This document shows, in pieces, positions 8,940 through 63,887 of a stretch of 64,000 bases of DNA. How positions within the stretch are numbered: the first letter of the stretch is position 1; every line of letters starts with the position of its first letter. Source of the DNA: Spirometra erinaceieuropaei (Eukaryota; Platyhelminthes; Cestoda; Diphyllobothriidea; Diphyllobothriidae). Under the pieces are notes generated by a model. It had not been told where the DNA came from. It did not search any database and worked only from the letters and a program-made list of their open reading frames with translations. The stretch spans positions 1-64,000 of the forward strand of contig CACRXP010000434.1 of assembly GCA_902702965.1 (NCBI GenBank), in the 5' to 3' direction. Both the position numbers and the translations under genes were made by a program.

Positions 8940-9185
8940 AGAAGAAAATAGCGGATTAGGTGGGTTGACCAGCCCCAATCCCAACCCCCTTCCCCACCAC
9001 GATGGTGGCAAGAGCGATGATGATCGTGGCAGCAGCGACGACAAACAACATCCGTGGTGGTGATGGCAACCGCAGCCACCCCACCAATCGCCACCACAGG
9101 CTGGAGACACTGCACCCTCGTCCTCCTTCGCACACTATTCCGCTTGCGCCACCTTATACAGATCCTCCTCTGGTTCCACCTTCAT
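8940..9185 (-). pseudogene. HCW peptide relic 1 (stop plus frameshift)
   Basis: Reverse-strand translation shows the family's acidic segment (VEPEEDLYK..), then a stop (TAG) just before CAKEDEGAVSPACGG and DWWGGCGCHHHHGCC. A one-base insertion after the GCC shifts the frame; the expected RRCC..HH..CHH..W.WGW pattern continues in the next frame to the end near 8970. No clear signal peptide is visible upstream (9186-9330). This is a dead copy of the peptide family. Confidence 0.82.
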
Positions 9186-9189
9186 CGCG

Positions 9190-10139
9190 GTGACCAGCCT
9201 CCTCTACCTCTCTCTTCCGTCTGCCAACTTCTTTCAACCGGTCGCTTCTCTAAGTGTTTCCGTACAGAATGCAGCATCCTCTCAGTGAAGGACCTGATGG
9301 TCGTAGTCAGTTAGGTCCTCACAGACTTATAGCTGCTGCGGCACGATTGCCAGTCTCCGCCGCGGAAATACTGACTCCTATGTAACCTGCACATTCCCTG
9401 ATCACTTGCAAAGATAGCATGTACATTTGGCAGGGGGCATATGGCGTTGTGGACAGCCGAACGTGCGAAAAGACCGTGTGCCCTGCAGCAGCAGCAGCAT
9501 GTAGAATTCAGAATTTGTATAAGTAGACGAGTAAACAAGTCATGCCTACTTACTTCCACTATGTTTACTCACATTAACCAGTAATACAAAGGAAAGTGAA
9601 GTACGTAGGTAAAGTGCGTTGACTCCTTCTATGCAGACTGCCAGTCTGTTCTGAGAATTAGAGACATTCTGGAGGGAAGATGGATCCGATGACAGCCATG
9701 TCGTCGTGGTCGTGATCGTGGTCGTCGTAGTGAGCAGCATTGTTGCATAGTACTCACCATCCTCCACCTCCCCTCTGGTCACTTTCAGGCTAACTAGCAT
9801 AATAGTCTACTCGGTGGATACCGCTGGGATGGGCCAAGAGCACTAGGTGACAAATCGTTTTCATACCGCTGCCAGTGATCCTTGTATCGAGGAGGACTGA
9901 CTCATTCATCACAATGGCTCAACAGTCCTTGCTACTTCTCGACAAACGATGCAATAGTCAACGACGCTACCTCATCCAACAAGACAGACATTTGTACCGC
10001 AAAGTCTTGCAATGGAGGCGTTCTTCAGTGCAAGCCAGCATCGTTAGAACCCCCAGAAAGGGATTAAATCCTCACTCGCAATGATAGACACTGACTAGAT
10101 ATTGAAGAAGAGAACACGTAGTTAATGGGTCAGTTAAGG
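9190..10139. other. Intergenic stretch, no gene recognised
   Basis: Contains only short simple-sequence runs, such as GCA repeats near 9485-9500 and CGT/GTC repeats near 9700-9735. No supported gene or recognisable element. Confidence 0.45.
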
Positions 10140-10177
10140 ATTTATTGTCGTAATTCACAGACATTGGTCATGCATAT

Positions 10178-10444
10178 TTACCAACCCCAACCCCAACCAT
10201 GATGATGGTGGCAACAGTGGTGGTGATGGTGGCAGCAGCGACGCCAACAACAACCGTGGTGATGGTGATGACAGCCACAGCCACCCCACCAACCGCCGCC
10301 GCCGCAGGCTGGAGACACTGCACCCTCGTCCTCCACCTTCGCACTCACCTCCCCCTCTGGTTCCTCCTCGTCCTTCCTAACCGTTTTCGTCAGGGTCATC
10401 TCCGTCAGGGCTGCCAACACCAGCAATGTGAGAAGCAGTTTCAT
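10178..10444 (-). CDS. HCW secreted His/Cys/Trp-rich peptide, copy 2 (subfamily A), 88 aa
   Basis: Single open frame. A signal peptide (residues 1-19, MKLLLTLLVLAALTEMTLT) is followed by an acidic, Lys-containing segment (about 20-44), then the core ACGGGGWWGGCGC-H5-GCCWRRCC-H5-CC-H4-GWGWGW. The start is fixed by the conserved MK.LLTLLVL opening and a TATA box 69 bp upstream. An AATAAA-type signal lies downstream (reverse complement of TTTATTG near 10140). Nine cysteines and 14 histidines in the core suggest metal binding or disulfide cross-linking after secretion; that is inference, and I recognise no described family. The 5' flank (to about 11035) is shared in inverse orientation with the copies at 17149 and 63621. 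Confidence 0.88.
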   Translation of the reverse strand: MKLLLTLLVLAALTEMTLTKTVRKDEEEPEGEVSAKVEDEGAVSPACGGGGWWGGCGCHHHHHGCCWRRCCHHHHHCCHHHHGWGWGW

Positions 10445-10505
10445 TGTCTTAGGTTGAGATGCTGTAGAAGAGCTGACGACTCAACCACACGCACCACTAG
10501 CCTTC

Positions 10506-10605
10506 CTTTTATAGCTGGGTGCGGAGGAAGAATTTATGGGTTTGTTTGGCACTGCGCTACAGGAATGCCTTTTGTTACTTGGTAGTAAGCGAACCTGTGA
10601 GTAAA
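10506..10605 (-). promoter_or_regulatory. Promoter of HCW copy 2 (TATA and TTGTTTAC/AGTAAC motif)
   Basis: Read on the minus strand: CTTGTTTACTCACAGG then CTTACTACCAAGTAACAAAA (about 10605-10570), followed by GCTATAAAAGGAAGG (about 10514-10500). The same pair of motifs, in the same order, precedes the other intact copies. The TATA-to-ATG distance is 69 bp. Confidence 0.7.
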
Positions 10606-11039
10606 CAAGGCGAGTGTTGCTGTTGTTGCTGTTGGCTTAGCTGATTTTGGCGTACGGTAGATGATTGGGGTGCTGAGAATACTCGATGGCTGACAATGTG
10701 GACGGATGGTTGGTTTTCGTTGTGGTGCTAACAACTGGTCATTGCACTATTTTTGCTTTTCACATTCCGGCCATTTTTCTCGCGATCAAGAGAGACGGGC
10801 GTGTACATTTTATAGGTTAGTGATCGCTGTTAATCAACTTTAACCAATTTCAGGTTTCGGAAGACCTGTGACTTAAACCCATGGTCTTTTTATTTCTACA
10901 TACTTACCACTAATCAGTGGACTCCTTATTATATCGCCTTCCATCGGGCATGCAGCTGTAGCAGATGAATTCTGAATCTAATCCGAAATCAGATGGGGAC
11001 ATATATGTCCCGTAACGCAATCAGTGAGCGCACATCTAC

Positions 11040-11240
11040 AGAGCAGTCAGCCCCTAACTTGGTTGTAAGGGCATTAGACTAATGATCATAAGAGTGCGGG
11101 TTGGAATCTCAGTAGGTCCCGGTCCTGGGATTGACTGAGACTGGCAGACGACAAAGACGGCTAGAACACGGGTTAGGCCTTGCAATAGAACTTGGGAAGC
11201 TTCATTCATCTGCAGCAGTCTGTGTACATATCCTTGCTAT
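11040..11240 (+). mobile_element. tRNA-like SINE candidate
   Basis: GGGCATTAGACTAATGATCA and GCGGGTTGGAATCTC (about 11069-11113) resemble a tRNA-derived head with a B-box-like GGTTGGAATC. The unit recurs at 12250-12420 with the same downstream text (CAGTAGGT..CCTGGGATTGACTG). Two copies with a shared body suggest a SINE; ends are not resolved. Confidence 0.45.
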
Positions 11241-11244
11241 GCAA

Positions 11245-11855
11245 AGATCCCCGCCAAAAAACTCACTGTGAAGGCGATGAAGAAGAATTGTGATGAGTGT
11301 GTCAGATCCTCATAATTCCAACGATATGTTTCAATATTTAACATAGACTGAATAGGCTACAAACAAAACGAATATTCAATCCGTGCAGTAGGAAACAGCG
11401 AGTGCAGAGAGCTCACACCGGGCTCCATACCGCCAGAGCTACTGGAGGTAAGTGCTCGAGAACCTGACTCTTCCTCACACGTCGCCGAGCCACACAAAGG
11501 CATTCAGTGACGAATAGTGATAGCTTCACTTAGAGACGGCCCCTTGATAGATTTCCACATGGCAGATTCTCAAAATTCAGTGAACTGCGGCTCTGCGCAT
11601 CAAAATCTCAGGTGGGTGGTCGACTGTTACGCTATGATGTTCTCATCTTAGTCTTCACCTCCATAAAAACATCAGGTTGATAAGTATTCATTTCTTTGGC
11701 TCCACGGATTTGCCCTGTAGCAGATAATGTGACAGGGCACAAATAAGTGCTAACATCTTTAATCAGAAGAATGCAACGGTGGTTTAAACAACAAAACATA
11801 ACGTAGATTGGAAAGCCATTATTTATTGGTAGAAAGAAGTGGTGGATAGTACGTT
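11245..11855. other. Intergenic stretch, no gene recognised
   Basis: No ORF, promoter or known repeat could be supported here. Confidence 0.4.
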
Positions 11856-11859
11856 ATTA

Positions 11860-12095
11860 CCAGACTCAACCCCAACTCTAGTCCCCGCTATGATGGTGGC
11901 AACAGTGATGATGATAGCGCCAGCAACATCGGTAATAATGATGCTGGTGGTGGTCTTGGTGTTGGTGTTGGTGGTGGTGGCGGTGGTGGTGGTGGTGGTG
12001 GTGGTGGTGATGTTGATGGCAACCCCAGCCACCTCACTAAACGCCGTATTTTGTAGACTCTACAACCTCGTTTTGTTTTGCACCTACGCTGTCTT
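11860..12095 (-). pseudogene. HCW peptide relic 3 (His-expanded, several stops)
   Basis: On the minus strand the frame reads ..AKQNEVVEST.., two adjacent stops, GGWGCHQHHHHHH.., a long His/Gln-rich expansion, then CCWRYHHHCCHHHSGD, stop, SWG, stop. The CCWR..CCHHH block and the position of the terminal W residues identify it as a family member. CAC/CAT codons have expanded well beyond the 4-6 seen in intact copies. No signal peptide is recognisable upstream. Confidence 0.75.
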
Positions 12096-12249
12096 TTGAG
12101 AATCTGCCGTATCTTCAGGCCAACTAAACCTTCATGGATGCGAAATAATTGGCATGCAAGTGGTATGCACGTAAGTAGCCTGGTTGTACTTTTTGAAAAT
12201 TTGACCCAAAACAGGGCGAACTGCACTGATCCCATGCATAAACTTCTAA

Positions 12250-12420
12250 GCAACGGCGTCAGTTGTAGGGGCATTAGACTACTAACTATACGAGCGCGGG
12301 TTGGAATCTCAGTAGGTTTCTGTCCTGGGATTGACTGCGGCTGGTTGACGGTCAAAAATGGTCCTCGCACTCTCCCTTGAAGGCTGTCGAAACAGTTCCT
12401 GTCGGTATATGCGACACAAG
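12250..12420 (+). mobile_element. tRNA-like SINE candidate, second copy
   Basis: Same head and body as 11040-11240: GGGGCATTAGACTACTAACTA, GCGGGTTGGAATCTCAGTAG, CCTGGGATTGACTG. Its tail (GGCTGTCGAAACAGTTCCTG, about 12391) also matches, in inverse orientation, a piece near 14695-14720, suggesting a third fragment there. Confidence 0.45.
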
Positions 12421-12656
12421 TCGGCCTCACGACAAACGCACCGTTCACCGGTGATGGGTCCTCTCCGAAAAGCACACAGAGAACATCGTCGGCAGCGCCG
12501 AGAGCGCTGTCATCCCAAATCTGTTTTGTAAAAAGTCTTTCAGGCGACCTACGCCTTCCGTTTCCAAAGACGGCTTAATCGAAGCTCATGGGTAGTGTTC
12601 AGGGAAAGCCCTTAAGTTGCTACCCGTGACTAGTTTGCCTTATAGCTATTAGCTTA

Positions 12657-17148: not shown

Positions 17149-17406
17149 ATGAAACTGCTTTTCACATTGCTGGTGTTGGCAGTCCTGGCGCAGATGACCC
17201 TGTCGAAAACGGTTAGGAAGGACGAGGAGGAACCAGAGGGGGAGGTGAATGTGAAGGATGATGAGGGTGCAGTGTCTCCAGCCTGTGGCGGCGGTTGGTG
17301 GGGTGGTTGTGGATGTCATCACCACCACGGATGTTGTTGGCGTCGCTGTTGTCACCATCACCACCACTGTTGTCACCACCATCATGGTTGGGGTTGGGGT
17401 TGGTAA
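17149..17406 (+). CDS. HCW secreted His/Cys/Trp-rich peptide, subfamily A, 85 aa
   Basis: Signal peptide (residues 1-20, MKLLFTLLVLAVLAQMTLSK), acidic segment (TVRKDEEEPEGEVNVKDDEG), then the core CGGGWWGGCGC-H4-GCCWRRCC-H5-CC-H4-GWGWGW. The core has 9 Cys, 13 His and 6 Trp and no Tyr. It is the shortest intact copy. The stop is followed by ACACGCATAA and an AATAAA signal near 17434. Role unknown: the layout (secretion signal, acidic pro-like part, metal-ligand-rich cationic end) would fit a secreted metal-binding, structural or antimicrobial peptide, but this is inference only. Confidence 0.9.
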   Translation: MKLLFTLLVLAVLAQMTLSKTVRKDEEEPEGEVNVKDDEGAVSPACGGGWWGGCGCHHHHGCCWRRCCHHHHHCCHHHHGWGWGW

Positions 17407-18862: not shown

Positions 18863-19900
18863 TTATCGCAGGTTTCCATGAGTGCGCATGCGACCTACGA
18901 GGCCCATGCGGTGAGTGGGTGTGCATGTGCAGTGTAGGCAGTTGAGACGGATGCGGCGGGTGTATGTAGGTGCTTCAGGCACTGACTCGGCAGTTGCGGG
19001 CGCGGTCGTGGAGGTAGCAATTGCAGTTGTCGGGTGGTTGGCGCATTGGGCCCGGAGATGGCCGACAAGGCTAATCCGGGCGCGGAATGTTCGCTGGCAT
19101 CGCGGACATGTTGGAAGTGGATTTGGTGTCGGTGATCCGGTTTGCGTTGTAGACTGCTGCGCCCGTCTTCCTTGCCTTTCTTCTAGCCGCCTGCCCTGTG
19201 CGAGGGCAGCCCGGAGCTCTGGCCGATCGGCAGTCGCTTCAGAGAGCTCATCAAAGTGTTTTTCAGGTGGTTTTTGTCCCATGTGTCGGCGATTAACCGT
19301 AGCGATATCTCCGTAGAAGAGTTAACTTGGTAGGCGGGCCCCATCATCTCTGACCAAGTGGCCGCTCAGATGCAGATGCCTCAGCAGGGCGTGGATGCTG
19401 GGGATTCCGGTCCGCTCCAGGACTTCCGTATCCTGGATCCTGTCCTGTCATCTCAGCATTCGTATTCTGCGGAAACAGCAACAAATGGAGTGGCAGAGCT
19501 TTCTGACATATCTGGACTAGACGGTCCAGTTCCCCCGCTATACAGAAGTATCGTCAGGACGACGGTCTGTTACATCTTCAGCTTTATGCACAGGTGGAGG
19601 CCATGGCGGTTGCATACGGAGGTGTGCAGTCGGCTGAAGGCCTGACAGGCTTTCAAGATCCGTTAAACCAATTCGCCGTCCATTTCATACAGCGTAAGAA
19701 TGTTCTGCCTAAGTAATCGAACTTTCCCGAGGTCTCCAGTTCGATGCTGTTGACGTGGGTGCGAGGAAAACAGGACGTCTGTTTGACCCGCAAGTTTGAG
19801 GGATTCCAGGAGTAAGGCGACGGGAGCGCACTCAAGAACCTCATCGTAATACTCAAGGCGGCCTATTGCCTGCCAATAAAAGGAATCACTACGCCTCTCA
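18863..19900 (-). mobile_element. Degraded RT/zinc-finger retroelement, second copy
   Basis: The minus-strand frame 19282-18863 reads through LSEATADRPELRAALAQGRR to [20 protein letters not shown], a CCHC finger as in the 961 copy, then a decayed finger LNCLHCTCTPTHRMGLVGRM. Upstream, 19300-19860, RT-thumb remnants such as VNSIELETSGKFDYLGRTFL are broken by frameshifts. Only two fingers remain, so either the array was contracted or the first copy was expanded. Confidence 0.75.
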
Positions 19901-26197: not shown

Positions 26198-26461
26198 ATG
26201 AAAACATTCCTAACAATTTTGCTTCTCGCCGTGCTGGTGCAGATGACCCTGGCGAAGACTGCGAGGAAGGCGGAACCAGAGGAGGATCTGTCGCAGGGGG
26301 AGGTCAGTGCGAAAGAGGACGAGGGTGCAGTGTCTCCAGCCTGCGGCGGCGGTTGGTGGGGTGGCTGTGGCTGCCATCACCACCACGGATGCTGTTGGCG
26401 TCGCTGCTGCCACCATCACCACCACTGTTGCCACCATCATGGTTGGGGTTGGGGTTGGTAA
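26198..26461 (+). CDS. HCW secreted His/Cys/Trp-rich peptide, subfamily B, 87 aa
   Basis: The open frame extends further upstream, but the start is placed at 26198 because MK-hydrophobic is the conserved family start, the TATA spacing fits, and upstream translation lies in conserved leader. Signal peptide MKTFLTILLLAVLVQMTLA; acidic segment (KTARKAEPEEDLSQGEVSAK..); core CGGGWWGGCGC-H4-GCCWRRCC-H5-CC-H3-GWGWGW. The core is almost identical to subfamily A while the signal and acidic parts differ. An AATAAA signal lies near 26491. Function unknown; secretion is well supported. Confidence 0.9.
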   Translation: MKTFLTILLLAVLVQMTLAKTARKAEPEEDLSQGEVSAKEDEGAVSPACGGGWWGGCGCHHHHGCCWRRCCHHHHHCCHHHGWGWGW

Positions 26462-26907
26462 ACACGCATAATATGCCATTTCCTGCTGACCAATAAACAT
26501 ATTGCCGCTTATTTTTGTCTTGTCTTTTCAATTGCTTAAACCGAGGACCAACCCCTGAAACCAGCGAACTGATTACTTTTGAACGGCAACTCATGGGGTC
26601 GAAAACCCTGACTTCCCATTAGCAGTACTCTGAATTTAATGAGCGAAAAGAATCTGACGTATTTAAGATTTGTTTGTGGGCTTAAACATTTATTAAACCG
26701 AGGTGATGGCGTAGGAAAGCCGAGGTATGGGAATCACGCGAGCACAGCTGTGGAACATTTTACTGTTTTGCCGACTGTTTGTCTACTTGAACTCACCATA
26801 GAATGTCAACCAGAGTTTCCGAGGCGCACATTTCAATTGCGTATAAAAAGTGCAACCTTTTTGGTAGTCCCAGTTTCAGCCTCTGCGCGATATCACAAGG
26901 CCTCACA

Positions 26908-27160
26908 ATATAATTTATCCTGGCAGTTTTGTTTCTGAGAGTCCTGGCGCAGATCACCTTGCTGGATGAGTTTCCCAAGGAGGAGTCAGATGAGTAGGAG
27001 GAGGAGGAGGGGGAGGAGTTCTAGGCGATGGAGAAGTATCGCTGAAAGGCAGCTCATGGATGGGTCAGTGCGAAGGAGGATGTTGGGGTTTCCCCAGACC
27101 GTGATTGTGACTGCTACCATCACAGGCCTTGCTGGCACTGCCGTGACTGCTTGACCCTCG
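26908..27160 (+). pseudogene. HCW peptide relic, subfamily D (start lost, stops)
   Basis: A TATA box (TATAAAAAG, 26842) lies 66 bp before the expected start, but the start triplet is ATA (26908-26910) instead of ATG. A signal-peptide-like stretch (ILAVLFLRVLAQITLL) is followed by an acidic segment with stops. Then VSAKEDVGVSPDRDCDCYHH and RPCWHCRDC keep the Cys/His/Trp order in open frame to about 27150. The 5' flank (26640-26907) matches that of the dead copy at 57330(-). Confidence 0.75.
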
Positions 27161-28899: not shown

Positions 28900-30610
28900 G
28901 ATGTGGGTTTTTGTTGCGCGCGCGCGCCACATGCACAACCTGACGCCCTAAAAAACAAGCACTAGGATTTCACACAACGGGGCTTAAACGGAGTACCTCT
29001 CACGTGCGTGAGAGTGCCGTCGAAGAAGCTGTTTCAGCCCGGCTCGCTGCCCACCAGTTCGCCACTGCACACAAACCCACACACAATTGGACGCACTGAG
29101 TGGATTGAGTTGGTGCGTCAGTCAGCAGCCTTCTAAGCCACGACGCCTGACGTGCCGTGATAGTCTCAGACTCGAATCCCACATGCAGTTGGGGATCCGC
29201 ATGGAGACGAAGTCAAGACGCACACTTTCAATTTGCGCAGGAGTTGGCATTTGGGTGCTTGTGGTGGGGTATGTTGATGCGCGATGAGATGTTGGTGAGG
29301 GAGGATTTGATTGAGCCGGCGGTTGTCCATCGCAGGTTTTCGTGGACGCGCATGTTGCCGAAATGGCCTATGCGGTGCATGAATGTCAAGTGCAATTTGG
29401 ACATTGGAGGTGGATGCCGCGAGTGTAGGTCTTTGCTGCAGGCGCTGGTTCGTCAGTCTGTGTGTGATTCGATTCGCTTGTGACCGGCCAGGCCGATGTG
29501 TGAATTGAGTGTGCGGGGACAATGTGGACATGAAAATTCGGCGGTGTCGGTATCAGCTACGGTGGTGGTGGTNNNNNNNNNNNNNNNNNNNNNNNNNNNN
29601 NNNNNNNNNNNNNNNNNNNNNNNNNNNNNNNNNNNNNNNNNNNNNNNNNNNNNNNNNNNNNNGGTGGTGGTGGACTGGCTGGACGATGGGATGTGAGTAG
29701 GGCTGAGCGTGGTGGGTGTGATAGAGTTGGTGGCGGTGGGCGCGCAGGGCGGCGGAGTGAGGGCGGGCATGGTAGGTGTGTTCGATGTGTTAGGTGTGTC
29801 GAGATTGCGGCCAATTCCGATTTCCTATATGTGCATGTGGTTGAATAGGTCCATGCGGTGCATGAATGTGCGAAGGCAGTGTAGGCAGTGGAGGTAAGTG
29901 CGGCGAATGCAGGTTGGTGCTCCAGGCACCGGCTCGCCAGTCTCTGTGCGATGGATTGGCAAGGGGCTGACCAGGTTGACGTGTGAGGTGAGGGGGCAGT
30001 CACCATGAGGACAGGCATAGACCAGGTCCTCAGCAATGGTGTCAACGGTGGTGATGTTTGTGTTTGTTGGGGTGTCAGGATTGTGTGTAATGTTGATGTG
30101 CATGGCAGACGCCACAACGGCAGACTTTGAGGTAGTGGGGAAGGAAAAGGGGGAGGAGAAGGAGGAGGGTGATGGATGGCAGTGGCGGTTCTGGAGGGCA
30201 GTCAGAATTAGTTGATGGCATAGGAGGCGAGGGAGACGTGGGCGGAGAGACGATGGTTGGTGCATTCCGAGTGCTGCACTTAGTCTAAAGGTGTCGAACA
30301 AGTCCAGTTGGCGCCCGAAATGTTCGCTGACACTGTGGAAACGTTAGAGACGGTTGGGTGTTGATGTTGCGAGGTGGACGCAGTTGAGATTTTCGTAATT
30401 CTTGTTTTGCTTTCGCGGCGCCGATGCGCTTAGCCTCCGCCTGTCTTCATCATGTCGGTCGGTCGCTTCAGACAGGTCTTCAGACTGATTCAGCCTCCTT
30501 GGTGGCCTCGGCTTGCAATTCAGCCTATTGTTTACGGACAGGTAGTAAAGGTCATTCTCTCGAATGCGTTGCTTTGGTCTGGGAAACTTGCCATTGCCGC
30601 ACATCAAAGT
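28900..30610 (-). mobile_element. Degraded RT/zinc-finger retroelement, third copy
   Basis: Minus-strand pieces: RLNQSEDLSEATDRHDEDRR (30607-30344), a decayed finger pair with the fixed linker [20 protein letters not shown] and LHCLHCLRTFMHRMDLFNH (about 30040-29825), and FSCPHCPRTLNSHIGLAGHK after the N gap. The 3' tail near 29110-29220 matches 2390-2480. Frames are broken many times. A gap of unknown sequence lies inside the array. Confidence 0.75.
29573..29662. other. Assembly gap (90 N)
   Basis: Ninety Ns flanked on both sides by GGTGGTGGT, so an unresolved (GGT)n / (ACC)n run within the zinc-finger spacer is likely. The true length is unknown. Confidence 0.95.
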
Positions 30611-30614
30611 CTGG

Positions 30615-32260
30615 ACATGCTGTGTCGGACCAAGGGGGAGGTCAAAATATGTCTAGCCCATCGCATCATAAACACACATATGTTATTTTGGGGGCTGGAG
30701 CCATCGCGGTTAACGCGCACCTCAAGCACCCTCCCAAATAAGGCAACACAGAGACCAAGAGCCCGCTTGCCACAAGGAGCCGTGTAATGTTCCTCTCGAT
30801 GTTTCCCTGCAATAGGGGATGACAATTGTCCTTCACCTGTTTGACTCCCAACCGTCGTCCCCTGTACATTAACCGTCACCTCACGTCCCATGAATAGGTA
30901 CTTTTCGCGGTCCCCTGCTCCATCGACGCCGCTAGTTCATCTGCCCACTACGGTCCAACAAAATCAAGAGGGTGTTTAGTGGAAAACCCACCTCCACCTA
31001 GGTCGTCTGCCCCACAATTCTTGTCATTTCTCAGCAAAATTTAGCCCCTATTCAGACACGAGAATTTTATCCATCGACGAGTATGTGGTTCTTCCACACA
31101 CACTCCAGGTTTGAAGTCTTACGTCTTCATAACTGTGGGCATTGGTGGGCTGGACAACTGCTCGCGTTATGTTTCATCCTCTTAAAGAAGGGTAGCTGAG
31201 TCTCTTTTGGTTGTTTTCTGGTGGCTCCTCTGCACCCTCCCCACTGCGGTTGTTTAAGTGAAATCTGGCCGGAACAATGATGCCAGGCTGGTCATAAGAC
31301 CTGGTCGCAACAGCCCTTTCAAAAGGTCCAAATCAGTTAAAATGTCTGAGAGACAGTCATGAAACTATGAAGATAGTCTGGAACGTCAGGTTCAATTAAG
31401 CACTATGCGATATTAACAATCTCCTGCAATTCTTCTTCACGGCTTTGACTCAACCGTGGTAATGTCAGGCAGTAACTGACTCAATTTTTGTCGATCGCCT
31501 CGGGAGGATTTCTCTCTCCAGAGAAACCGCGCAACGTTTGGATTCTCGTGACTGCCACTTTAATATCGTCGGACATCGCAACTTCACCTTGTGCTGCCTG
31601 TTGTTTGAAATAGAAACTTGAAAAGCAGAAGCAGTTGGCACACGCCTTGGGGACGTCCATTAATCTCCTTTCCTCATGCGATCAATTCTCTCCTGTCCGT
31701 TATTCAACATTTTCAAAAATTTTGAGTAGGCTCAGTCAGCAGACTTTCTACCGCTGCCGAAGTTTTCTACGACTCCGCAAGAAAGTGCTTTCGAATTTGA
31801 TCTGACTCTCCTCCAGCACTGCAATGTTCTTTGCTGGTGGAAATTCTATTTGAACTAGCCCTAATCTCGCTGACTAATTCTGGGCGACATGAAGCCCACA
31901 ATTCCGGGATTGGCTGCAACGCGGATGACTTCGGGAAATCATGGCCTCATTGTATTCAGCACATAGATATGTGAACATTTCTGAACACAAGGGGAATTTT
32001 CGACCGTCGTACTGACGTATCAGTCAAAAGCCAGGGCAGTTTCACGACTTCATAGATCTATCCTGCAAATTCAGTGAACGAGAAGACAGATTATGGCTGA
32101 AGTAGAAACTCTCTTGATTGGAAAATGCAAATGAGCGATTATACACATTCACTGGTTCCATCCCTAACCTCAACCGTGGTCGTGATCATGACGGCTGTCT
32201 GAGGTGGACATAGTGTAAAGCACAGGCTGAACAAAAAAGTGGTGAAAGTGATCTGTCCAC
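30615..32260. other. Intergenic stretch, no gene recognised
   Basis: Short ORFs at 30604-30891 show no family resemblance. Nothing else is supported. Confidence 0.4.
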
Positions 32261-37289: not shown

Positions 37290-37950
37290 AAGTATGCCTA
37301 ACAAGCCTTCGAGGCATGGTCGTCATTTGCTTCTGTGTAATTGAAACGTTTCTGTTTTATGGTGCGATGTTTTGAATACTATGCGCATATTGTGCGCTGT
37401 ACTTTAAGATCAAATAATTGCTTACTTTCTTAATTCTTGACCAGGAGGAGACGCGCGTTTGTCTGCAAAGTGGTCTATCCATATACCAGACGGCATATTA
37501 AAGAAACATGAAGATGCAGAGAAATTCCACGAATAACAGCCCAGAATTTTAAATGTCACCAACTGGCAATAGCATTGTAAGGACGCAGTCGGGTAGACTG
37601 AAATCGCGTTCAGCAGACTTCTGTCTCAATAGTCAAATTCCGGGACATAATTATCGCATTTCTCTATCGAGTTCAGATTCCAAGGCGATCAAAATGGACC
37701 ACCTAAAGAGAAGATTTATTCCTCACAGTAAGGATGATGAGCAGAAGGAAAAGGCTGGGGAGGGTGTGGGAGGGCCCCGTGTGCCACTAAGAGCCCGGCA
37801 GTGTGTATTTGAATGTGGGCCTCTATGGCGTGTCCCTCATCAGGCCAGGCTGGAAGTGGGGTGGAACAAAGGGGGGGCAGTTTGTGGTAGGACACTCGGG
37901 CCACGCAGAGTCAGCGCATCCCTCAACAAATGTCACACACGCACGCGCAC
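37290..37950. other. Intergenic stretch, no gene recognised
   Basis: An ORF from 37553 runs into the repeat array and is low-complexity. No supported gene. Confidence 0.35.
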
Positions 37951-37959
37951 ACACACGCA

Positions 37960-39150
37960 TACAATAGTTCGAACGTCGCACCCAACGATGTCCACCGTAT
38001 GCCACAAAGCAGGTGGTAGGAGCAAGGACGGTGACTTGCGCAGGGGTTTATAATGCCAGTAGATTTGTGCTGCATCTACCTACACTCTCTCCTCCTCCCC
38101 CGTCTGGGTCCGGTGTCAAGACAGAGTCAAGAAGACCGGAGACGAGGGAGGCCGCAGGTGGATGGTTTGCACTGATCCGCACCTTGGCGTTCCACTCCGC
38201 ATCCCCTAGTCCACATAACATATTAGCAGGATTTTGACCGACAAAACAACGAGGACGGGGAGCGGCAGCGGTCCCAGTTTGTGAGACGACTGCCGACAAC
38301 AGGGTCTGCCAGCCCACACCCTAGATGGTGGCATTTGCTATTGCGCAAGATAACGCCTGCCAGAATCCGATGTGGTCCCGTGTTGGTCCAGCGTCGCTAC
38401 CACGTGACCCGTTTGAGGGCCACACACACACACGCACACACACACACACGACAGTTCTTCCGTCGATTTCGACGATGTCCACCGTATGCCCCACAGACTA
38501 CATTGTGGCAGCAGGGACGGTGACTTACGCAGGGGTTTATAGTGCCAGTAGACTTGCGTAGCATCTACCTACACTCTCTCCTCCTCCCCCGCCTGGACCC
38601 GGTGTCAAGACAGAGTCAAGAATACCGGAGACGGGGGAGGCCGCAGGTGGATGGCTCGGACGGATCCTCGCCTTGGCGCTCTACTCCGCACCCCCTGGTC
38701 CACACACAAATGACCAGGATTTTGACCACAAGACAATGGAGTGGCGGCAGTGGTCCAGTTTAGCGACGAATGCCGACAATAGGGTCCGCCAGCGCACCCC
38801 GCAAATGTTGGCATTTGTTATTGCGCACAGATAACGCCTGCCAGAGTCCGATGTGTTGGTCCAGCGCATCTAACACGTGGCCCGTTTGGAGGGCACACAC
38901 ACACACACTGACAGTTCGACCATCGGTTTCGATGATGTCCACCGTGTGCCCCACAGTTGCAGCAGCAATGGGAGCAGGGACGGTGACTTACGCAGGGGTT
39001 TATAGTGCCAGTAGACTTGCGCTGCATCTACCTACACTCTCTCCTCCTCCCCCGTCTGGGTCCGGTGTCAAGACAAAGTCAAGAAGACCGGAGACGAGGA
39101 AGGCCGCAGGTGGATGTTTAAGACGGATCCTCCCCTTAGCGTCCCACACA
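37960..39150 (+). repeat. Tandem array of the ~470-bp CA-rich repeat (about 2.5 units)
   Basis: The landmark TCCACCGT(A/G)TGCC occurs at about 37989, 38476 and 38938, giving unit lengths near 485 and 462 bp. Each unit runs from a CA run with a GTTC(G/T)... segment through ACGGTGACTT(A/G)CGCAGGGGTT, TATAATGCCAGTAGA or TATAGTGCCAGTAGA, CTACACTCTCTCCTCCTCCC, AAGACCGGAGACGAGG, CCGCAGGTGGATGG, to CCCCCTGGTCCACAC. A longer CA run is at 38421-38449. The family is also at 3, 15.1, 18.3, 47.7 and 61.7-62.6 kb. No protein is suggested. Confidence 0.8.
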
Positions 39151-43365: not shown

Positions 43366-43582
43366 ATGAAAGTCCTCTTTACAATTTTGTTGCTCGGAGT
43401 CCTTGTGCATGTCGCCCTAGGGAAGAGAGTTCCCGAGGCGGAACCGGAGGAGGAGGGGGAGGAGGAGGAGGAGAATCTACCGAGAAAAGCACAAGGGGAG
43501 ATGAGTGCGAAGGAGGACGAGGGTGCACTGTCTCCGGCCTGCGGCGGCAAACGCGGTGGTTGTGGCTGCCATCGCAGCCGCA

Positions 43583-43613
<31 letters not shown>

Positions 43614-43677
43614 CTGTTGTCACCGTCATCGTCGCCGTTGCCGTGGTCACAGCCAATGTCGGCGCCGAGGCTGTTAA
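43366..43677 (+). CDS. HCW-related secreted Arg/Cys-rich peptide, subfamily C, 103 aa
   Basis: Signal peptide MKVLFTILLLGVLVHVALGK, a long acidic segment (VPEAEPEEEGEEEEENL..), the family signature GEMSAKEDEGALSPACGG, then KRGGCGC and an Arg-rich end instead of His runs: CHRSRSCGRRRRRHRRCCHR followed by HRRRCRGHSQCRRRGC. Nine cysteines are kept, as in the His-rich members; the WW and GWGWGW parts are lost. CGC/CGT codons occupy places where others have CAC/CAT, a single-base change. The longer acidic part may balance the higher positive charge (inference). An ATTAAA signal lies near 43708. A cationic peptide, possibly membrane- or nucleic-acid-active; function unproven. Confidence 0.85.
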
Positions 43678-50589: not shown

Positions 50590-53500
50590 GTACTCAGAAG
50601 AAGAGGATGCGATCATTGGAACATGAAGTTTATTGGCTCGACTTTTCGGATCCCCACTTGACCCAATCATTAGAGACGGCAGCAAATTAAGGTAATGGAG
50701 ACACAAAGACGGCAGTATTTATAGCACGTGGGACCATATGCGTGCTATAATTAACGGCTCTCGCGATCAGCGCATGGTGTCGTAATCAATGCGATAATAA
50801 CTCCTCCTTCCGCGTTCGAGTAGTCAGTTGCCGCAATGTTGTCATCTGTGGGACCACAGACGTACTACAACTAACAGTTCTCGTGATCACCGCTGGGTGT
50901 TGTAATTAAGGCGACGATGGCTCGTCAGTCCGCGTCCGATTGCATCATCCGAGTTGGATGTTGACGTGATGATTACTGGGCCATTTGGCCCGCTGTCATC
51001 AGGTGAGCACAGCGCCTGCGTCATCCCCACGTGACTGATTCCCCTACCCAGAGAATGCCTCAGTACTGAATATGGTACCGGGGGGTCATTGTGCTTGTTG
51101 ATGGACTGCGGGCTTGAGAATAATGACCCAAGCAGCTCGCGGTTCACGCGGTTGTCAGCTCTTGCGAGAATTTCAGCCTCTTGAAACGTGAAAATACGGC
51201 CAAGTTCCGTGGAATGAGCCGCTACCTGAGAGCTGGCGTCTTTCCTCCTCACCGCTGCTGTGTGCTGGAACATGCAGGTGCGGAGTAATCTCCCAATTTC
51301 TCTGATGTAGTTGTTCTATCCGAAATTGCACCAGATCCCGTGAACGACTCCAGAGGTTTCCTGCTGCCGCAGTGGGTCCTTCGGCGTCATGTCTTGGCAC
51401 CTGTTGGGTGCTTCCGGCCTGCGTGCAACCCCAACTCCATGTGGAATAAGAAGATAACTGACGGCATCTGAGATATTTCTCGTGTACGGAAGAGCCAGCC
51501 CAAATTTGGGGCCGGTATAATTTGGTCATTGGTTCCATTCTCGTACACACTTTGACAAAGTTGAGCGCTTGCCATTGGCTCTCAGTACCCGTCGAAGGTA
51601 TTGTAATTCACTAACCGTTTCTTCCATTTAACCGCAGTGTGTCTCAACGCGCTTATATAGCGCCTTTACGCAATAGCGTTTGTGACCGATCGGGTGGTAA
51701 CTGTTGAAATTCAGTACTTGCGTCGTACAGTGCGTGACCTATCTCATGAAATGTAGGCTGAAATTCTGAAATGCGTTTTCGATTAGGAAGGATTGCTTGG
51801 TCGCGGTTGTGATACTGATTATCATAAAGCATACACTTATAACATTTTAGACTTGGCAGGATGTCGGCTTTAAAATGCACTTCTTTTCAATCTCCTGTAG
51901 AAAGCGTGCTCGGTAGAAAATGACTACTTAATTAGCATGCATTTTTCCCATTGATTTTCGGTGGACTTGGAAATTCAAATATATTTTATAGAAACCACAA
52001 ACAAAAATGTGCATTCTTTTACTCAATCAATAGAGAATAACGTCTTCTTTACATTTGATACTTAAGGAAAGAGTATAATTAGGTTTTAAAAAAGTTTTCT
52101 AATTGCCGAAAAATTTGGAGCCTGATCATTTGTTGCATTTGCGCTTAGTGATTACACTCCACAAGGTGCATGCGTTCCGAGTAAAGAAAATCCCATATTT
52201 TTCTAAGTCAGTAAAGAGATATCATACAGGGTCCATAAAATTTTGCAATGGATGCGGACCATGTTGTACATTGCATGAGAAGCAGTGGTAAACGGCCATG
52301 TACGATGCTATGTGAATGGACATATCGCGGTCTTAAAAAGTCTCATAATTGGAAACTTTTTAAAAACCTAATTATACTCCTTTCTTAAGTATACAATGTA
52401 AAGAAGACGTGATTCTATATTGAGTGATTAAAAGAAAGCACATTTTTGTTTGTGGTTTCTATAAAATATATTTGAATTTCCAAGACCATCGAAAATCAAT
52501 GGGAAAAACGCATGCTACATACGTAGTCATTTTTTACCAAACAGGCTTTCTACAGGAGATTTAAAAAATGTGCATTTTAAAGCCGACATCCTGCCAAGTC
52601 AAAAATGTTATAAGAGCATGCCTTATGATAATCAGTATTACAACCGCGACCAAGTAATCCTTCCTAATCGAAAACGCATTTCAGAATTTCAGCCTACATT
52701 TCATGAGATAGGTCACGCACTGTATTTGTCACCTTTCTGAACACTTTGCTTTTTAGGGCCCCGCAATCTTTGCAGAAAACTGGGGCATCCAGAAAGGCCA
52801 GCTAGTTGTTCTCTTACTCCTCCATCGTAAATTGAATGTCCAAGAAGACGGCGTGAGACGTTCTTTGAATGTAAGCATCTGCTCTCGTTCGATGACGTCG
52901 AAGTTATCATCTACATACCGAGCCCAAAATTTCAGTCTATGGTGGCGGGAAATCAGCGTCTCCAACCGTTGTTGAACCGCCTCGGCTATGAGTCCCGAAA
53001 TCGGTGAACCCATTGGCGTGCCCTTCACCTGCTCATGGATTGTTCCGTCGAACTTAAAGAACGTTTTGATGCAGAACTTCAGGAGGTAGATGATTTGGAT
53101 GTGTCCGAGGTGATTCTCCGTTACATCGTATTTGTCTCGTAGGAGTATTTCGATGGTCTCGACTGCCAGGTCCTGCGGAATAGAAGTAAAAAGGGACGTG
53201 ACATCAAATAATACCATGACATCGCTTGGCAAGAGACTTACTCCTTTAAGTTTCTCTTACAATTGTGTTGACGAGCTGATTGTGGTGTTCGAATCGAAGG
53301 TCGGAATCTTGAGACGTCGAAACAGCCACTTTGCCAGTGCGTAGGTTGGAGTGCCTTTTAGTGGAACGATAAGCCAGAGAGGAGCGCCCTCTTTGTGTGC
53401 TTCTCGATGACCAGGGTCGCTTCTTGCGCTCTCGCCACGCGTCGGTGGATTGGTGATTTTGCGCCTTAGTTCTCCATTGCCAGCAACGTCGTATTGATCT

Positions 53501-55400: not shown

Positions 55401-55787
55401 TGCCAACATTTGATGTTTGTAGAGTCGGCGTATTCATATTCAGCAAAACTTTTTAGAAAGCTTACCATATGATATCATTTAAGTGGGGCTGTAAGACCAA
55501 ACCTCGTCGAAGATATTTTTATCCTTAATGAGAGTTGAGGGAATTATGCGAGTCTACCAGTCCCAACACCAGCCGTTAACGTTGCTATGGGAATAGAAAA
55601 AATACGGTCGAGTGGGTCGTAACATTTTCCTTATCCGAGTGCTCATGACCACATGAGTTGCCGTTCAAAATTAATCAGTTCACTGTCTTCAAAGGCTTCG
55701 TCCCCGGCTTAGGTACTCGAGAAGACTAGTCAAAATATAAGCGGCAATTTGTTTATTGGTCATTAGGAAATGGCATATTATGCGGGT

Positions 55788-56057
55788 TTACCAACCCCAA
55801 CCCCAGCCATGGTGGTGGCAACAGTGGTGGTGATGGTGGCAGCAGCGACGCCAACAGCATCCGTGGTGGTGATGACAGCCACAGCCACCCCACCAACCGC
55901 CGCCGCAGGCTGGAGACACAGCACCCTCGTCCTCCTTCGCACTCAAATCCCCCCTCGCATACTTTGACAGATCCTCATCCTCCTCCTTCTTCGATTTCGC
56001 CAGGGAGACCTGCACCAGCAGCAGGCCGAGGAGCAGAATTGCTAGGAGTGGTTTCAT
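55788..56057 (-). CDS. HCW secreted His/Cys/Trp-rich peptide, subfamily B, 89 aa
   Basis: The frame is open 16 codons further upstream, but the conserved MK start and TATA spacing (66 bp; TATAAAAA at 56123-56116) place the start at 56057. Signal peptide MKPLLAILLLGLLLVQVSLA, acidic segment KSKKEEDEDLSKYARGDLSA, core CGGGWWGGCGC-H4-GCCWRRCC-H5-CC-H3-GWGWGW, identical in core to the 26198 copy. The AATAAA signal is in reverse complement near 55760. The 5' and 3' flanks match the 26-kb unit, so the two are inverted duplicates about 30 kb apart. Confidence 0.9.
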   Translation of the reverse strand: MKPLLAILLLGLLLVQVSLAKSKKEEDEDLSKYARGDLSAKEDEGAVSPACGGGWWGGCGCHHHHGCCWRRCCHHHHHCCHHHGWGWGW

Positions 56058-57179: not shown

Positions 57180-57330
57180 ACGTCCTCCTTCGCACTGACC
57201 TGCCTATACGTTCTATTTGAACTATCTGTCTACTTTGCTTCTCTTGACCCCTCCTTGGTACTCTCCTTCGACAGGGCGATCTGCAAGCCGACTCTCAAGA
57301 GCAAAACTATCGATATAAATCTTACTTCAA
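57180..57330 (-). pseudogene. HCW peptide relic, subfamily D, cut by a LINE
   Basis: On the minus strand the expected start reads TTG (57330-57328), followed by a signal-like VRFISIVLLLRVGLQIALS, an acidic/Lys segment with a stop, and QVSAKED, where homology ends abruptly at the LINE fragment. The whole Cys/His core is missing. The 5' flank (57335-57560) matches that of the 26908 relic (GAGGCGCACA..GCGTATA). Confidence 0.72.
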
Positions 57331-57564
57331 TGTCTTGTAATGCCGTAAATGGGCTGAAAAATACGACTACCTGAAATGTCAAACTTTGTATACGCAAATA
57401 AACTGTGCGCCTCGAAAGTTTTGGTTGGCTTTATATAATAAGTTAAACTAGACAAACAATCGACAAAGCAGTGAAATATCCCACAGCTCTGTGCTCTTGA
57501 TTTTCCTATCCTTTTTGTCCGAACAGGCCATTTAAGCGCCAAAAATTCAGTCCTGCAAAATGTG

Positions 57565-58130: not shown

Positions 58131-58327
58131 GCTACCAGCCTCAAATACAACCGAAGCCGTTACTGTTGCTATGGGAACGAAAAAATGACGGTCGACTGAG
58201 CCGCTGCGTCGCTCTTATCCTGATCCACAAAACCACATGAGTTGCTGTTGAAAATTAATCAGTTCACTGGCTTGACAGGCTTTGTCCTTGTCTTAAGTAG
58301 ACGAGTCACGAATAAGCTCTGAACTCT

Positions 58328-58540
58328 TTATTGGTTGGAAGGACATGGCGGATTATACGTGTTTACCAGCCCCAATCCCAGCCACGGCCCCCACCTATGA
58401 CGGTGACAAGAGTGGTGATGATGGTGATGACAGCCACAGCCACCACATCGACCGCCGCAGACTGGAGACACTGCAGCCTCGTCCTCCTTCGCGCTCACCT
58501 CCCCTTGTTCCCCCATCGACTGATCCTACTTCTCCTTCCG
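58328..58540 (-). pseudogene. HCW peptide relic or truncated copy
   Basis: The minus frame from an internal Met reads GEQGEVSAKEDEAAVSPVCG, GRCGGCGCHHHHHHSCHRHR, then WGPWLGLGLVNTYN, where a frameshift turns the usual GWDWGW-type end into LGLGL. A stop (TAG) lies just before the Met, and no signal peptide can be read upstream. The 3' flank to about 58140 matches that of the 55.8-kb gene. It is probably dead; a leaderless peptide is possible but unlikely. Confidence 0.7.
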
Positions 58541-58652: not shown

Positions 58653-58964
58653 TTATGCGTGTTTACCAGCCACAGACATGATGATGGCAGTAGTGAGCCA
58701 ACAACACCGGTGGTGGTGGTGGTGGTGGTGGTGGTGGCGGTGGTGGTGGTGGTAGTGGTGGTGGTGGTGGTGGTGGTGGTGGTGGTGGTGGTGATGGCAG
58801 CCACCGCCACCCCACCAACCGCCGCAGGCTGGAGTCACTGCACCCTCGTTCTCCTTCTCACGCACATCCCCTTGCGCCTTCGACTGATCCTCCTTCTTCT
58901 TCCGTTCCACCAGCGTGATCTGCAGCAGTACGCCAATCAGCAGAACTGTCAAGAGAAGTGTCAT
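58653..58964 (-). CDS. HCW-related secreted poly-His peptide, 103 aa
   Basis: Signal peptide MTLLLTVLLIGVLLQITLVE, a Lys/Glu segment (RKKKEDQSKAQGDVREKE), ACGGWWGGGGC, then a His tract of 14, Tyr, 4, Arg, 9, then RCCW. After CCW the frame differs from other members, giving LTTAIIMSVAGKHA and reading through the usual stop position by three codons. The TATA-like TATGAAAG lies 67 bp upstream. The (CAC)n expansion is a slippage product. Open frame and intact promoter spacing suggest it may still be made, with strong metal-binding capacity; the lost C-terminus argues it is on the way to decay. Confidence 0.75.
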   Translation of the reverse strand: MTLLLTVLLIGVLLQITLVERKKKEDQSKAQGDVREKENEGAVTPACGGWWGGGGCHHHHHHHHHHHHHHYHHHHRHHHHHHHHHRCCWLTTAIIMSVAGKHA

Positions 58965-59463: not shown

Positions 59464-59532
<69 letters not shown>

Positions 59533-60880: not shown

Positions 60881-60884
60881 AAAC

Positions 60885-61165
60885 CGACAGGGAAACGGCT
60901 CGTAGTCCAGTGGTTAGAGGCGTGGACTTCTCACTAACAGGTTGCGAATTCGAGCCTCAGGTGTTCCACACTCCGCGGTTGGATATGACTGGCTGACTGC
61001 GGCTAATAATTCAGAAATGGACATTCCATTCCCCTTGTCTTTGTCGGTAATGTCATTCTGCCTATATCATGCGTCGCTGTGTAGCTGCTGGTTGGGCTCG
61101 AGAAAGAGCCCGCAATGCACAACGGGACGAGTGAGTTCCGTAGGAACGATCGGTGAATGCCCCCT
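60885..61165 (+). mobile_element. tRNA-derived SINE candidate
   Basis: An A-box-like TAGTCCAGTGGTTAGAGG (60904-60921) and B-box-like GCGAATTCGAGCC (about 60944-60956) have the spacing of a tRNA-type RNA polymerase III promoter. The anticodon-arm region pairs poorly, so a working tRNA is not claimed. The tail ACGAGTGAGTTCCGTAGGAA at about 61125 repeats the piece at 60820, suggesting two copies. Confidence 0.55.
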
Positions 61166-61639
61166 ACCAGAGATATAGGTATGTGCAATGGAAATAATTC
61201 ATGGAAAATAAAGAGGATTTCGGAATCAAAAAAATTTCCACCCTGAATGTTAAGCACTTAAAGGCAGTCTTTCCATGTTGATATAAACTTCTGTATCTAT
61301 AAGTGAAAAATAGTTGCAATAGCTTGTAATAGCGGCAAACCGCAAACCATCGCCTGAACAAACTGCAGGAGGTAATCTCGAAATGCTCAGTCTTTGTAAC
61401 CTCGTTGATCGCGGACAGACTTTCGCTTGACGTCTACCAAATCCGGGTTGGGAAGCACGATAATGAGTCTGTATAGACATTTCTGAAGCGTCTGGTTCTC
61501 AAGGCGGTTGTCTACATGGGCAATAGCACAGGCCGGTGAACCACGCAGGCCAAGCCTAGTTGGTATACGGGAGAAAACGTGATCGAACAACGCCTACTTA
61601 AGTAAACGCAGTAAGCAGTGTTGTGTTCTATTTGACCTA

Positions 61640-62580
61640 ACCCGGGAAAAAACCATACTCTTACCCAGAGCACTCCGCTGTGGAGCACTGTGGAGACACA
61701 CACACACACACACACACACACAACAGTTCGGCCCTCGTTGCCGACGTTGTCCACCGTGTGCTTCACAACAAGATGGAGCAGGGACAATGACTTGTGCTTG
61801 AATTCGTTTATAGTGAATGTAGACTTGCACGGCATCTACCGCACTCTCTGCTCACCCAACTGGGTCCAGTGTTAAGGCAGAGTCAAGAAGATCGGGGGCG
61901 AAAGGGGACGCTGGTGGATAGCACGGTCGAGCCCGCACCTTGGCTTTCCACTCCACTCCCCCTGATTCACACAGCAAATGACCAGGATATTAACCGGCAG
62001 CAACAATGGGGAGGGACGCATGGTCCCACTGTACGCTGCGTCCGCTGGCAGACGGGTCTGCCACCGCACCCCCGAAATGTTGACATTTGTTATGGTGCGC
62101 ATTCCGATAACACCGATCCGATGTGGTCCCCTTGTTGGTCCAGCGCATCTACCACGTTGACCGTTTTGGGGACGCGAATACACACGAGAGTTTGACCGTC
62201 GATTCCAACGATGTCCACCGTGGGCTACATAGCAAGGGACAGCAGGCACGGTGACATGTGCGTAAATTAGTCCATAGTAATAGTGGACTTGTGCGGCATC
62301 AAGCGCACTCGTCCTTCCTAGCTCCCCATATGGACCCGGTATCAAGACGTAGTCAAGAAGACCGGATTAGGGAGAGGGCGAAGGTTGGTGGCACTGTCGA
62401 GCACGCACCTTGGCGTTCCAATCCAAACCCCCTGGTCCACACAGCAAATGGCCAGGTTTTTCTCCAACAAAAAAGCGAGGAGGAGGCAGGGGTCCCACCG
62501 TGCGCGGCGACTGCTGGCAATCGGGTCTGCCATCGCACCCACGAAATGTTATGATGCGCAATCTGATAATAACTGAGAGA
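61640..62580 (+). repeat. Two tandem units of the ~470-bp CA-rich repeat
   Basis: TCCACCGTGTGCT (about 61749) and TCCACCGTGGGCT (about 62214) mark units about 466 bp apart. Each unit shows the order seen at 38 kb, including GCACTCTCTGCTCACC / GCACTCGTCCTTCC and CCCCTGATTCACACAGC / CCCCTGGTCCACACAGC. A pure CA run is at 61695-61722. Confidence 0.75.
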
Positions 62581-63002
62581 ATCCGATATTTACCCCGTGA
62601 TGGTGCAGCGGATCTACCACGTGGCCAGTTTGTGCGGGGCACACACACTTGTCTGACATTTTCACTCGATTTAGCCGCATTTGGTGGATGGTTACAGGGG
62701 TAGTGGTGCCGTGCCGGGCACCACGTCATGGTGCCAAAGGTGAGATCTGCGTGCCGAGATGGGACGACGCGAAACTACCCACGAGGCACATCGAGGTTTT
62801 TGGATGTAACTGTCAATGTACTGCCTATAGGTGCTCGTTGCCACCTAGGTCGTACCTGCATAATCGGGCCCAGATGGACTCGTCTATGTCACATCCATGT
62901 GCGTGTTGATTGCGCAGAGTGCCCTCGTCAGTGTAAAGTCGAGGGATCTGATGTGACCATTAAACTATCCTCAGCCATGGACTCAGTGTCGTATCGATAG
63001 CT

Positions 63003-63620
63003 GAGTGGGACTTATGGGACATATGTATGCCTCCGCTTCTGATTTGAGACTCCATTCAAAATTCATCTGACATAGCCGATCGAAGGTGACAGCACGAGTA
63101 GTCAGTCCACTGATTAGTGGTAAGCGCGTAGGAATAATAAAAATCGAAAGAACGTGCATTGGAGTCACAGGTCTTTCTAAACCTTAAAGCTGACTGATGA
63201 CGGGAAGTAAGCCAGAAATGACCACGCCGTCCGTCTTCCTTCAGCGTAATAAAAAATAGCCGGAGTGTCAGTAGCCGAAATGATGCAACGGTAAGACTTG
63301 GACACCACAATGAAAACAAACCCTCCGTCCACAATACCAGCAGTAAACATCAACATGCTTAATCCTAAAAACAAGCCATCCAGCATTCTCCCTACTCCAA
63401 TCATCTACCATACGCCAAAATCAGCTCAGCCAACAGCAACAACAGCAACACTCGCCTTGTTTACTCGCATGTTCGCTTACTACCAAGTAACAAAAGGCAT
63501 TCCTGTAGCGCAGTGTCAAACAAACCCATACATTCTTCCTCCCTGATCCAGCTATAAAAGGAAGGGTAGTGGTGCGTGTGGTTGAGTCGTAGCTATTCTA
63601 CAGCATCTCAACCTAAGACA
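63003..63620 (+). promoter_or_regulatory. 5' flank and promoter of HCW copy 63621 (subfamily A block)
   Basis: Close repeat of 16548-17148. Contains TTGTTTACTCGCATGTTCGC and CCAAGTAACAAAAGG (63457-63495) and GCTATAAAAGGAAGG (63551-63565), with the TATA box 68 bp before the ATG. Confidence 0.7.
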
Positions 63621-63887
63621 ATGAAACTGCTTCTCACATTGCTGGTGTTGGCAGTCCTGGCGCAGATGACCTTGGCGAAAACGGTTAAGAAGGATGAGGA
63701 GGAACCAGAGAGGGAGGTGAGTGCGAAGGTGGAGGACGAGGGTGCAGTGTCTCCAGCCTGTGGCGGCGGTTGGTGGGGTGGCTGTGGCTGTCATCACCAC
63801 CACCACGGATGTTGTTGGCGTCGCTGCTGCCATCATCACCACCACCACTGTTGCCACCACCATCATGGTTGGGGTTGGGGTTGGTAA
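63621..63887 (+). CDS. HCW secreted His/Cys/Trp-rich peptide, subfamily A, 88 aa
   Basis: An in-frame Met exists 15 codons upstream, but MKLLLTLLVL is the conserved start. Signal peptide MKLLLTLLVLAVLAQMTLAK, acidic segment TVKKDEEEPEREVSAKVEDE, core CGGGWWGGCGC-H5-GCCWRRCC-H6-CC-H4-GWGWGW. It differs from the 17-kb copy by one extra His in two of the three tracts. A polyadenylation signal AATAAA lies near 63919. It lies on a duplicated block of about 950 bp shared with 16548-17460. Confidence 0.9.
   Translation: MKLLLTLLVLAVLAQMTLAKTVKKDEEEPEREVSAKVEDEGAVSPACGGGWWGGCGCHHHHHGCCWRRCCHHHHHHCCHHHHGWGWGW

Follow-up and report, generated by a model that had tools for sequence, protein, structure and literature searches.

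A multicopy family of apparently intronless genes for predicted secreted mini-proteins with a residue-invariant His/Cys/Gly/Trp-rich core in Spirometra

A stretch of 64,000 nucleotides from the cestode Spirometra erinaceieuropaei (contig CACRXP010000434.1 of assembly GCA_902702965.1, positions 1 to 64,000; hereafter the window) carries one gene family on both strands, between 8.9 and 63.9 kb, as delineated by six-frame scanning and profile search. In five of its copies (c10, c17, c26, c55 and c63 in Table 1), which we call canonical, the C-terminal core, rich in histidine, cysteine, glycine and tryptophan, has accumulated synonymous changes only. These copies are proteins under selection and form a real gene family. 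The family appears to consist of multiple, apparently intronless genes for putative secreted mini-proteins, known so far only in Spirometra and undescribed in the databases and literature that we searched; a function is proposed here from composition.

Each canonical copy encodes 85-89 residues in a single frame, arranged as a signal-peptide-like start, an acidic segment, the motif SPACGG and the core. The hydrophobic start is about 19 residues long and the acidic segment has a net charge of -3 to -5. The core, of 39-42 residues, is written in a five-residue alphabet of 9 Cys, 10-11 Gly, 12-15 His, 6 Trp and 2 Arg, with neither Tyr nor Lys nor anything else. An earlier note on this DNA, made from the letters alone, had put the core at about 45 residues with 9 Cys, 13-15 His and 6 Trp; its Cys and Trp counts stand, its length and His range do not. 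The “SAK” that it placed in the acidic segment is found in four of the five canonical copies, 17149-17406 having NVK, and the WW/CGC/CCWRRCC/GWGWGW core that it described is complete in five of the seven open copies, the exceptions being 43366-43677 (c43) and 58653-58964 (c58). The signal peptide that it had read agrees with the small residues that each intact copy (the canonical five and c43) has at positions -3 and -1 and with a helix at residues 2-22 in an AlphaFold2 model, an assignment made by eye and from this helix. The model, computed from a seven-sequence alignment, has no other helix and no structure beyond it (mean predicted local distance difference test score 52.7). Such low confidence fits a peptide whose shape would be set by ligands or cross-links, although an alignment of seven sequences tends to give the same result.

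Evidence for selection comes from minimal changes counted among the five canonical copies, the core count starting at SPAC and gapped columns being left out. The 42 codons of the core contain 16 synonymous and 0 non-synonymous changes, while the 42 codons of the N-terminal half contain 20 synonymous and 45 non-synonymous changes, and it is because of this difference that we conclude that the canonical copies are selected proteins. Treating changes as independent, the two halves differ with a Fisher P of 2e-7 and an all-synonymous core would arise neutrally with a chance of 2e-11. Since His runs can yield synonymous differences that are made by the alignment, the core was recounted without His codons: 10 changes remain in 30 codons, all of them synonymous (chance 5e-7, on the same assumption). 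The pooled ratio of non-synonymous to synonymous change (dN/dS) is 0 in the core, 0.43 in the acidic part and 0.61 in the signal part; a ratio near one, named in the earlier note as an outcome that would speak against the family, is thus not seen in the core. Outside the core, the ratios of single pairs scatter widely (0.09-1.52 and 0.21-1.60 where defined), which is to be expected with few sites. The His runs range from 3 to 6 residues and one copy gains a Gly, but there are no substitutions in the core. His number and spacing are therefore flexible while the identity of the core residues is fixed, a combination more in keeping with a need for ligand density than with a rigid fold.

The canonical copies fall into two groups, A (c10, c17 and c63) and B (c26 and c55). 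Without His codons, the synonymous divergence of the core is 0.222 within A and 0.222 between A and B, whereas that of the N-terminal part, counted over same-residue codons only, is 0.059 within A and 0.254 between A and B; within B, the corresponding values are 0.095 for the core and 0.145 for the N-terminal part. Over the 300 bases upstream, members of A differ from one another by 5-13%, the two members of B by 26%, and members of different groups by 52-53%. Because the core diverges equally within and between subfamilies while the flanks differ strongly, these admittedly small numbers suggest that core tracts have been exchanged between copies by gene conversion of short tracts. Such exchange does not account for the missing non-synonymous changes, because amino-acid changes alone cannot be removed by exchange. 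Longer alignments, all of which include the promoter, give 89.9% identity between c17 and c63 (927 aligned bases), 77-79% between c10 and c17 or c63 (about 900 bases) and 78.4% between c26 and c55 (883 bases). The 110 bases past the stop codon are 39-56% different, except for c26 and c55 (18%). Because promoters travel with the copies, we infer that the latter multiplied as segments of DNA rather than through processed transcripts.

The flanking signals are shared as well (Table 1). TATAAAA lies 66-69 bases ahead of the ATG in all five canonical copies, and a poly(A) signal starts 29-31 bases past the stop codon in the six intact copies, as AATAAA or, in c43, as ATTAAA. The four occurrences of TATAAAAGG in the 64 kb all precede a family copy, c55 having TATAAAAAG instead, and AAGTAAC[AG]AA occurs five times in the window, always upstream of family copies (c43 included, c55 not). 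TGTTTACT, which in our view resembles a forkhead site, stands upstream of 6/6 intact copies, but there are 13 occurrences in the window overall. TCACGT, a chorion-type element, was discarded as a common feature: it lies within 1500 bases upstream of 2/6 copies, at differing distances.

The two remaining open copies depart from this plan, so that the seven equivalent open copies of the earlier note were an overstatement. A signal-like start, an acidic segment, SPACGG and a nine-Cys tail are present in six of the seven open copies, c43 among them. The tail of c43 has nine Cys, 18 Arg, 5 His and no Trp, and its acidic segment a charge of -9. Against the other copies, its core shows proportions of non-synonymous and synonymous differences of 0.27-0.28 and 0.61-0.83, respectively; it was excluded from the core selection counts, which thus do not establish its own constraint. 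The role of this member, at least, may lie outside His-metal chemistry. In c58, TPACGG replaces SPACGG and four Cys are left, the core region reading WW..GC, then a His run that has expanded, and the C-terminus being unrelated to that of the family. TATGAAAGG occupies the position of the TATA box of the other copies, the upstream elements are altered, and no AATAAA is found within 300 bases after the stop codon. Because core, TATA box and poly(A) signal are lost, we regard c58 as a pseudogene whose frame has stayed open.

Relatives were sought among predicted proteins of limited length by searches seeded with 5-residue words, which would miss unannotated copies. These gave 2 matches with an expectation value (E) <=0.01 among 3 candidates and 3 matches with E <=1 among 4, and a broader search gave at least 4 with E <=1 among 7987 scored candidates. 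The matches are P0001 of Spirometra sp. Aus1 and P0002-P0004, unnamed proteins of S. erinaceieuropaei; no relative outside Spirometra was found among the matches scored. P0001 (AAHC03_022933), annotated merely as a hypothetical protein, has the signal-like start, acidic segment and SPACGG of the family and a core of the same residues with nine Cys. It can be aligned with c26 over its full length; from SPAC on, the two differ by no substitution but by two indels, the loss of CG and the gain of HGC in the core of P0001. The available text of the Aus1 genome paper (PMC12249497) names no such family; gene prediction there used a softmasked assembly together with sparganum RNA-seq.

Two of the three S. 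erinaceieuropaei models are chimeric. In the nr protein P0004, the N-terminus of another family copy is joined to residues 37-110, which equal the antisense of 63909-63688 (c63) at 74/74 positions; for its N-terminal part the window has no source of that identity, the best match reaching 86% (26243-26353). On the evidence of the 74 residues, the window belongs to S. erinaceieuropaei or to something nearly identical. P0003 combines two family N-termini with a tail related to a reverse-transcriptase-like fragment at 52753-53368 (-), which scores 26.1 bits with RVT_1, below the cut-off of 29.6.

As the earlier note had supposed, no described family was found in Pfam, NCBIfam, PDB sequences, the protein searches or the literature, and there is no exact match to a characterised family in these. 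Neither Pfam (five proteins scanned) nor NCBIfam (three proteins) gave anything above cut-off. The glycine-rich protein family PF07172 reached at best 19.8 bits (cut-off 30), and the frog skin peptide signal/propeptide PF03032 matched c55 alone among the window copies scanned (18.8 bits, E 0.0017, cut-off 27), with 12.2 bits for P0001. Eight PDB sequences (nanobodies, antibody chains, OprN and CueR) matched c63 with E between 0.017 and 0.21, probably through His-tags or composition, and were discarded. The literature searched holds, in its available text, no paper that combines “Spirometra” with “histidine-rich”, and names no such family.

Composition suggests a secreted, metal-binding and disulfide-linking mini-protein, perhaps for an extracellular material, a reading that we favour tentatively and to which we give slightly less than an even chance. 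The genes would be transcribed from a compact promoter, which in the canonical five includes a TATA box, and the signal peptide would be cut off after about residue 19. The acidic segment may balance and solubilise the core, or serve as a pro-piece. Disulfides would form among the nine cysteines under the oxidising conditions of the secretory route and, because the number of cysteines is odd, at least one would be left for an intermolecular link. The His runs between Cys pairs could then bind a divalent metal, e.g. Zn or Cu, the Gly-Trp ends could stack or stick to surfaces, and the peptide could become part of, or harden, a material outside the cells, for instance eggshell, gland secretion or tegument coat. 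Without Tyr, the core itself is unlikely to contain 3,4-dihydroxyphenylalanine (DOPA), although its His and Cys could accept quinones from other proteins. A more elaborate form of this reading is possible but rather unlikely as a whole: lineage-specific peptides in which a five-letter core without predicted structure, each residue fixed as in the site of an enzyme, would serve in a cement or eggshell that is set by metal and linked by disulfides, the peptide itself having no DOPA, accompanied by an Arg-rich nine-Cys paralogue in which positive charge takes the place of metal chemistry.

Two known systems offer partial precedents. In the available text on the nereid jaw proteins Nvjp-1 and Nai11527 (PMC13120676), these are Gly- and His-rich with a signal peptide, as the family described here appears to be, and His is reported to bind Zn in a secreted hard material; partial Nai11527 is however ~53 kDa, and the text has 0 mentions of “cysteine”, compared with nine Cys and six Trp in 85-89 residues here. 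No homology to them appeared in the protein searches, whose length window excluded proteins of that size. Trematode vitelline/eggshell (TES) proteins are, like the proposed products, secreted structural flatworm proteins, with His and Lys as quinone partners, and in Calicophoron cross-linking without DOPA has been proposed, according to the available text of PMC11727788. They are ~29 kDa and contain Tyr (same source), whereas the family is far smaller, has no Tyr in the canonical core and no TES match.

Several observations weigh against the metal-binding, cross-linked material. The TES eggshell domain is not among the Pfam families with E <=1 in the five proteins scanned. Nine Cys occur in all five canonical cores, in c43 and in P0001, but the seven-sequence alignment has no more than 6 invariant Cys columns and, for that reason, the constant count may be due to chance. 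Judging from c43, which has Arg in place of most His and no Trp in its core, not every family member can have metal binding as its role; with no TATAA within 300 bases upstream, this copy may itself be inactive. Finally, the models of P0002, P0003 and P0004 exit the family exon at or near SPACGG. We take this for a gene-prediction artefact around a masked or odd core, real splicing at that point being the less likely alternative.

The same composition, with its invariant His/Cys/Trp core behind a signal-peptide-like start, would equally suit a soluble metal or haem scavenger, nutritional or detoxifying, that the worm releases and does not build into a material. We regard this as unlikely, if worth keeping in view, given that the odd Cys number and the Gly-Trp ends would suit cross-linking. 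Precursors of antimicrobial peptides such as frog skin peptides and defensins consist of a signal, an acidic segment and a C-terminal block, and the family might by its layout encode host-defence precursors of this kind, in which an acidic pro-piece precedes a mature part rich in Cys and cationic, either in itself or once the pH is low. The match of c55 to PF03032, though below cut-off, points the same way, and so does the Arg-rich c43, which bears the most acidic segment (-9 against -3 to -5), a charge relation that rests on this single variant. No dibasic site was seen by eye directly before the core. The C-terminal block is invariant here and variable in such precursors: in typical antimicrobial and toxin families variation runs opposite to the pattern of a frozen end block behind varying signal and acidic parts, which argues against an arms-race peptide and makes this reading improbable.

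It is more improbable still that the genes belong to a known secreted family of Spirometra, e.g. P-ISF or another expanded orthogroup, a comparison made by description only. Expanded secreted families whose function is given as unknown, one of them including the Cys-rich P-ISF, are reported for Sparganum proliferum in the available text of PMC8166898. P-ISF is a glycoprotein according to this source, whereas the six intact copies show by eye no N-x-S/T site, and “histidine” occurs 0 times in the available main text. We give least credence to a non-coding or decaying repeat, open by chance, in which triplet slippage would have made the His runs. Triplet expansion is indeed seen in c58 and in the relic at 11.8-12.1 kb, and transposon pieces lie nearby. 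For the canonical copies this is strongly countered by the core, in which 0/16 changes, or 0/10 without His codons, are non-synonymous, and by the promoter and poly(A) signals, which these copies retain and c58 does not.

As this family demonstrates, even sequence of extremely low complexity can be held by strict selection at each residue. It also illustrates how easily short genes with low-complexity cores are missed in annotation, as in the three S. erinaceieuropaei nr models, one of which reads a copy antisense. Were metal binding and cross-linking to hold true, these proteins would represent a flatworm route to a secreted material by a protein without DOPA, and would provide defined markers for Spirometra biology.

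The extent of the family was determined with an nhmmer profile built from six open copies, c58 being left out, and run against the window with rows kept to E 10. It returned 29 rows: the seven open copies, five clear relics in six rows (E <=1.5e-9), two weak pieces, and 14 rows that were dropped, all with E 0.096 or worse. The seven open copies and five clear relics bear out the “at least 12 genes and relics” of the earlier note. Triplet runs with His-, Tyr- and Cys-type codons near 14.2-14.3 kb and 59.4-59.6 kb have no other family features and were not counted. A tblastn match (E 0.003) at 1117-1245 (-) is interrupted by a stop and was taken for composition.

Table 1 Members, relics and flanking elements of the family in the window (nt, nucleotides)
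Feature	Coordinates	Strand	Description	Upstream elements and positions	Poly(A) signal
Canonical copy c10	10178..10444	-	88 residues, one open frame	TATAAAAGG 10513, AAGTAACAAAA 10580, TGTTTACT 10607	AATAAA 31 nt past stop
Canonical copy c17	17149..17406	+	85 residues, one open frame	TATAAAAGG 17080, AAGTAACAAAA 17012, TGTTTACT 16985	AATAAA 29 nt past stop
Canonical copy c26	26198..26461	+	87 residues, one open frame	TATAAAAGG 26132, AAGTAACAAAA 26050, TGTTTACT 26023	AATAAA 30 nt past stop
Canonical copy c55	55788..56057	-	89 residues, one open frame	TATAAAAAG 56123, TGTTTACT 56233; AGGTAACAAAA replaces AAGTAACAAAA	AATAAA 30 nt past stop
Canonical copy c63	63621..63887	+	88 residues, one open frame	TATAAAAGG 63553, AAGTAACAAAA 63485, TGTTTACT 63458	AATAAA 30 nt past stop
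Arg-rich variant c43	43366..43677	+	103 residues, 9 Cys, core without Trp, longer acidic segment	AAGTAACGAA 43218, TGTTTACT 43191; TATAA absent from the 300 bases upstream	ATTAAA 29 nt past stop
Decayed open copy c58 (read as pseudogene)	58653..58964	-	103 residues, expanded His run, 4 Cys in core		
Relic	8933..9184	-	In-frame stop and frameshift; nhmmer E 3e-56		
Relic	58321..58540	-	Match without N-terminal part, stops upstream; nhmmer E 1e-40		
More divergent relic	26797..27141	+	Acidic EEEEGEE run, several stops, degenerate core; nhmmer E 1e-23		
More divergent relic	57181..57442	-	Promoter and N-terminal part; nhmmer E 2.2e-15		
Relic	11811..12083	-	Core part, triplet expansion, stops; two nhmmer rows, E 2.8e-13 and 1.5e-9		
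Weak relic, 3' part	32104..32195	-	nhmmer E 4e-5		
Weak relic, 3' part	55538..55577	-	nhmmer E 2.5e-4		

The window also contains the pol region of a Gypsy-type retrotransposon (5926-8424, +), with reverse transcriptase, RNase H and the zinc-binding and core domains of integrase all above the Pfam cut-off. An open frame at 478-2253 (+) encodes C2H2 zinc fingers separated by Ser/Thr/Pro-rich stretches, and pieces similar to it by eye lie at 18863-19321 (-) and 29825-30343 (-). A tandem array at 37934-39141 comprises 2.5 copies of a 489-base unit and resembles stretches at 61.7-62.6 kb and at 3.0-3.3 kb.

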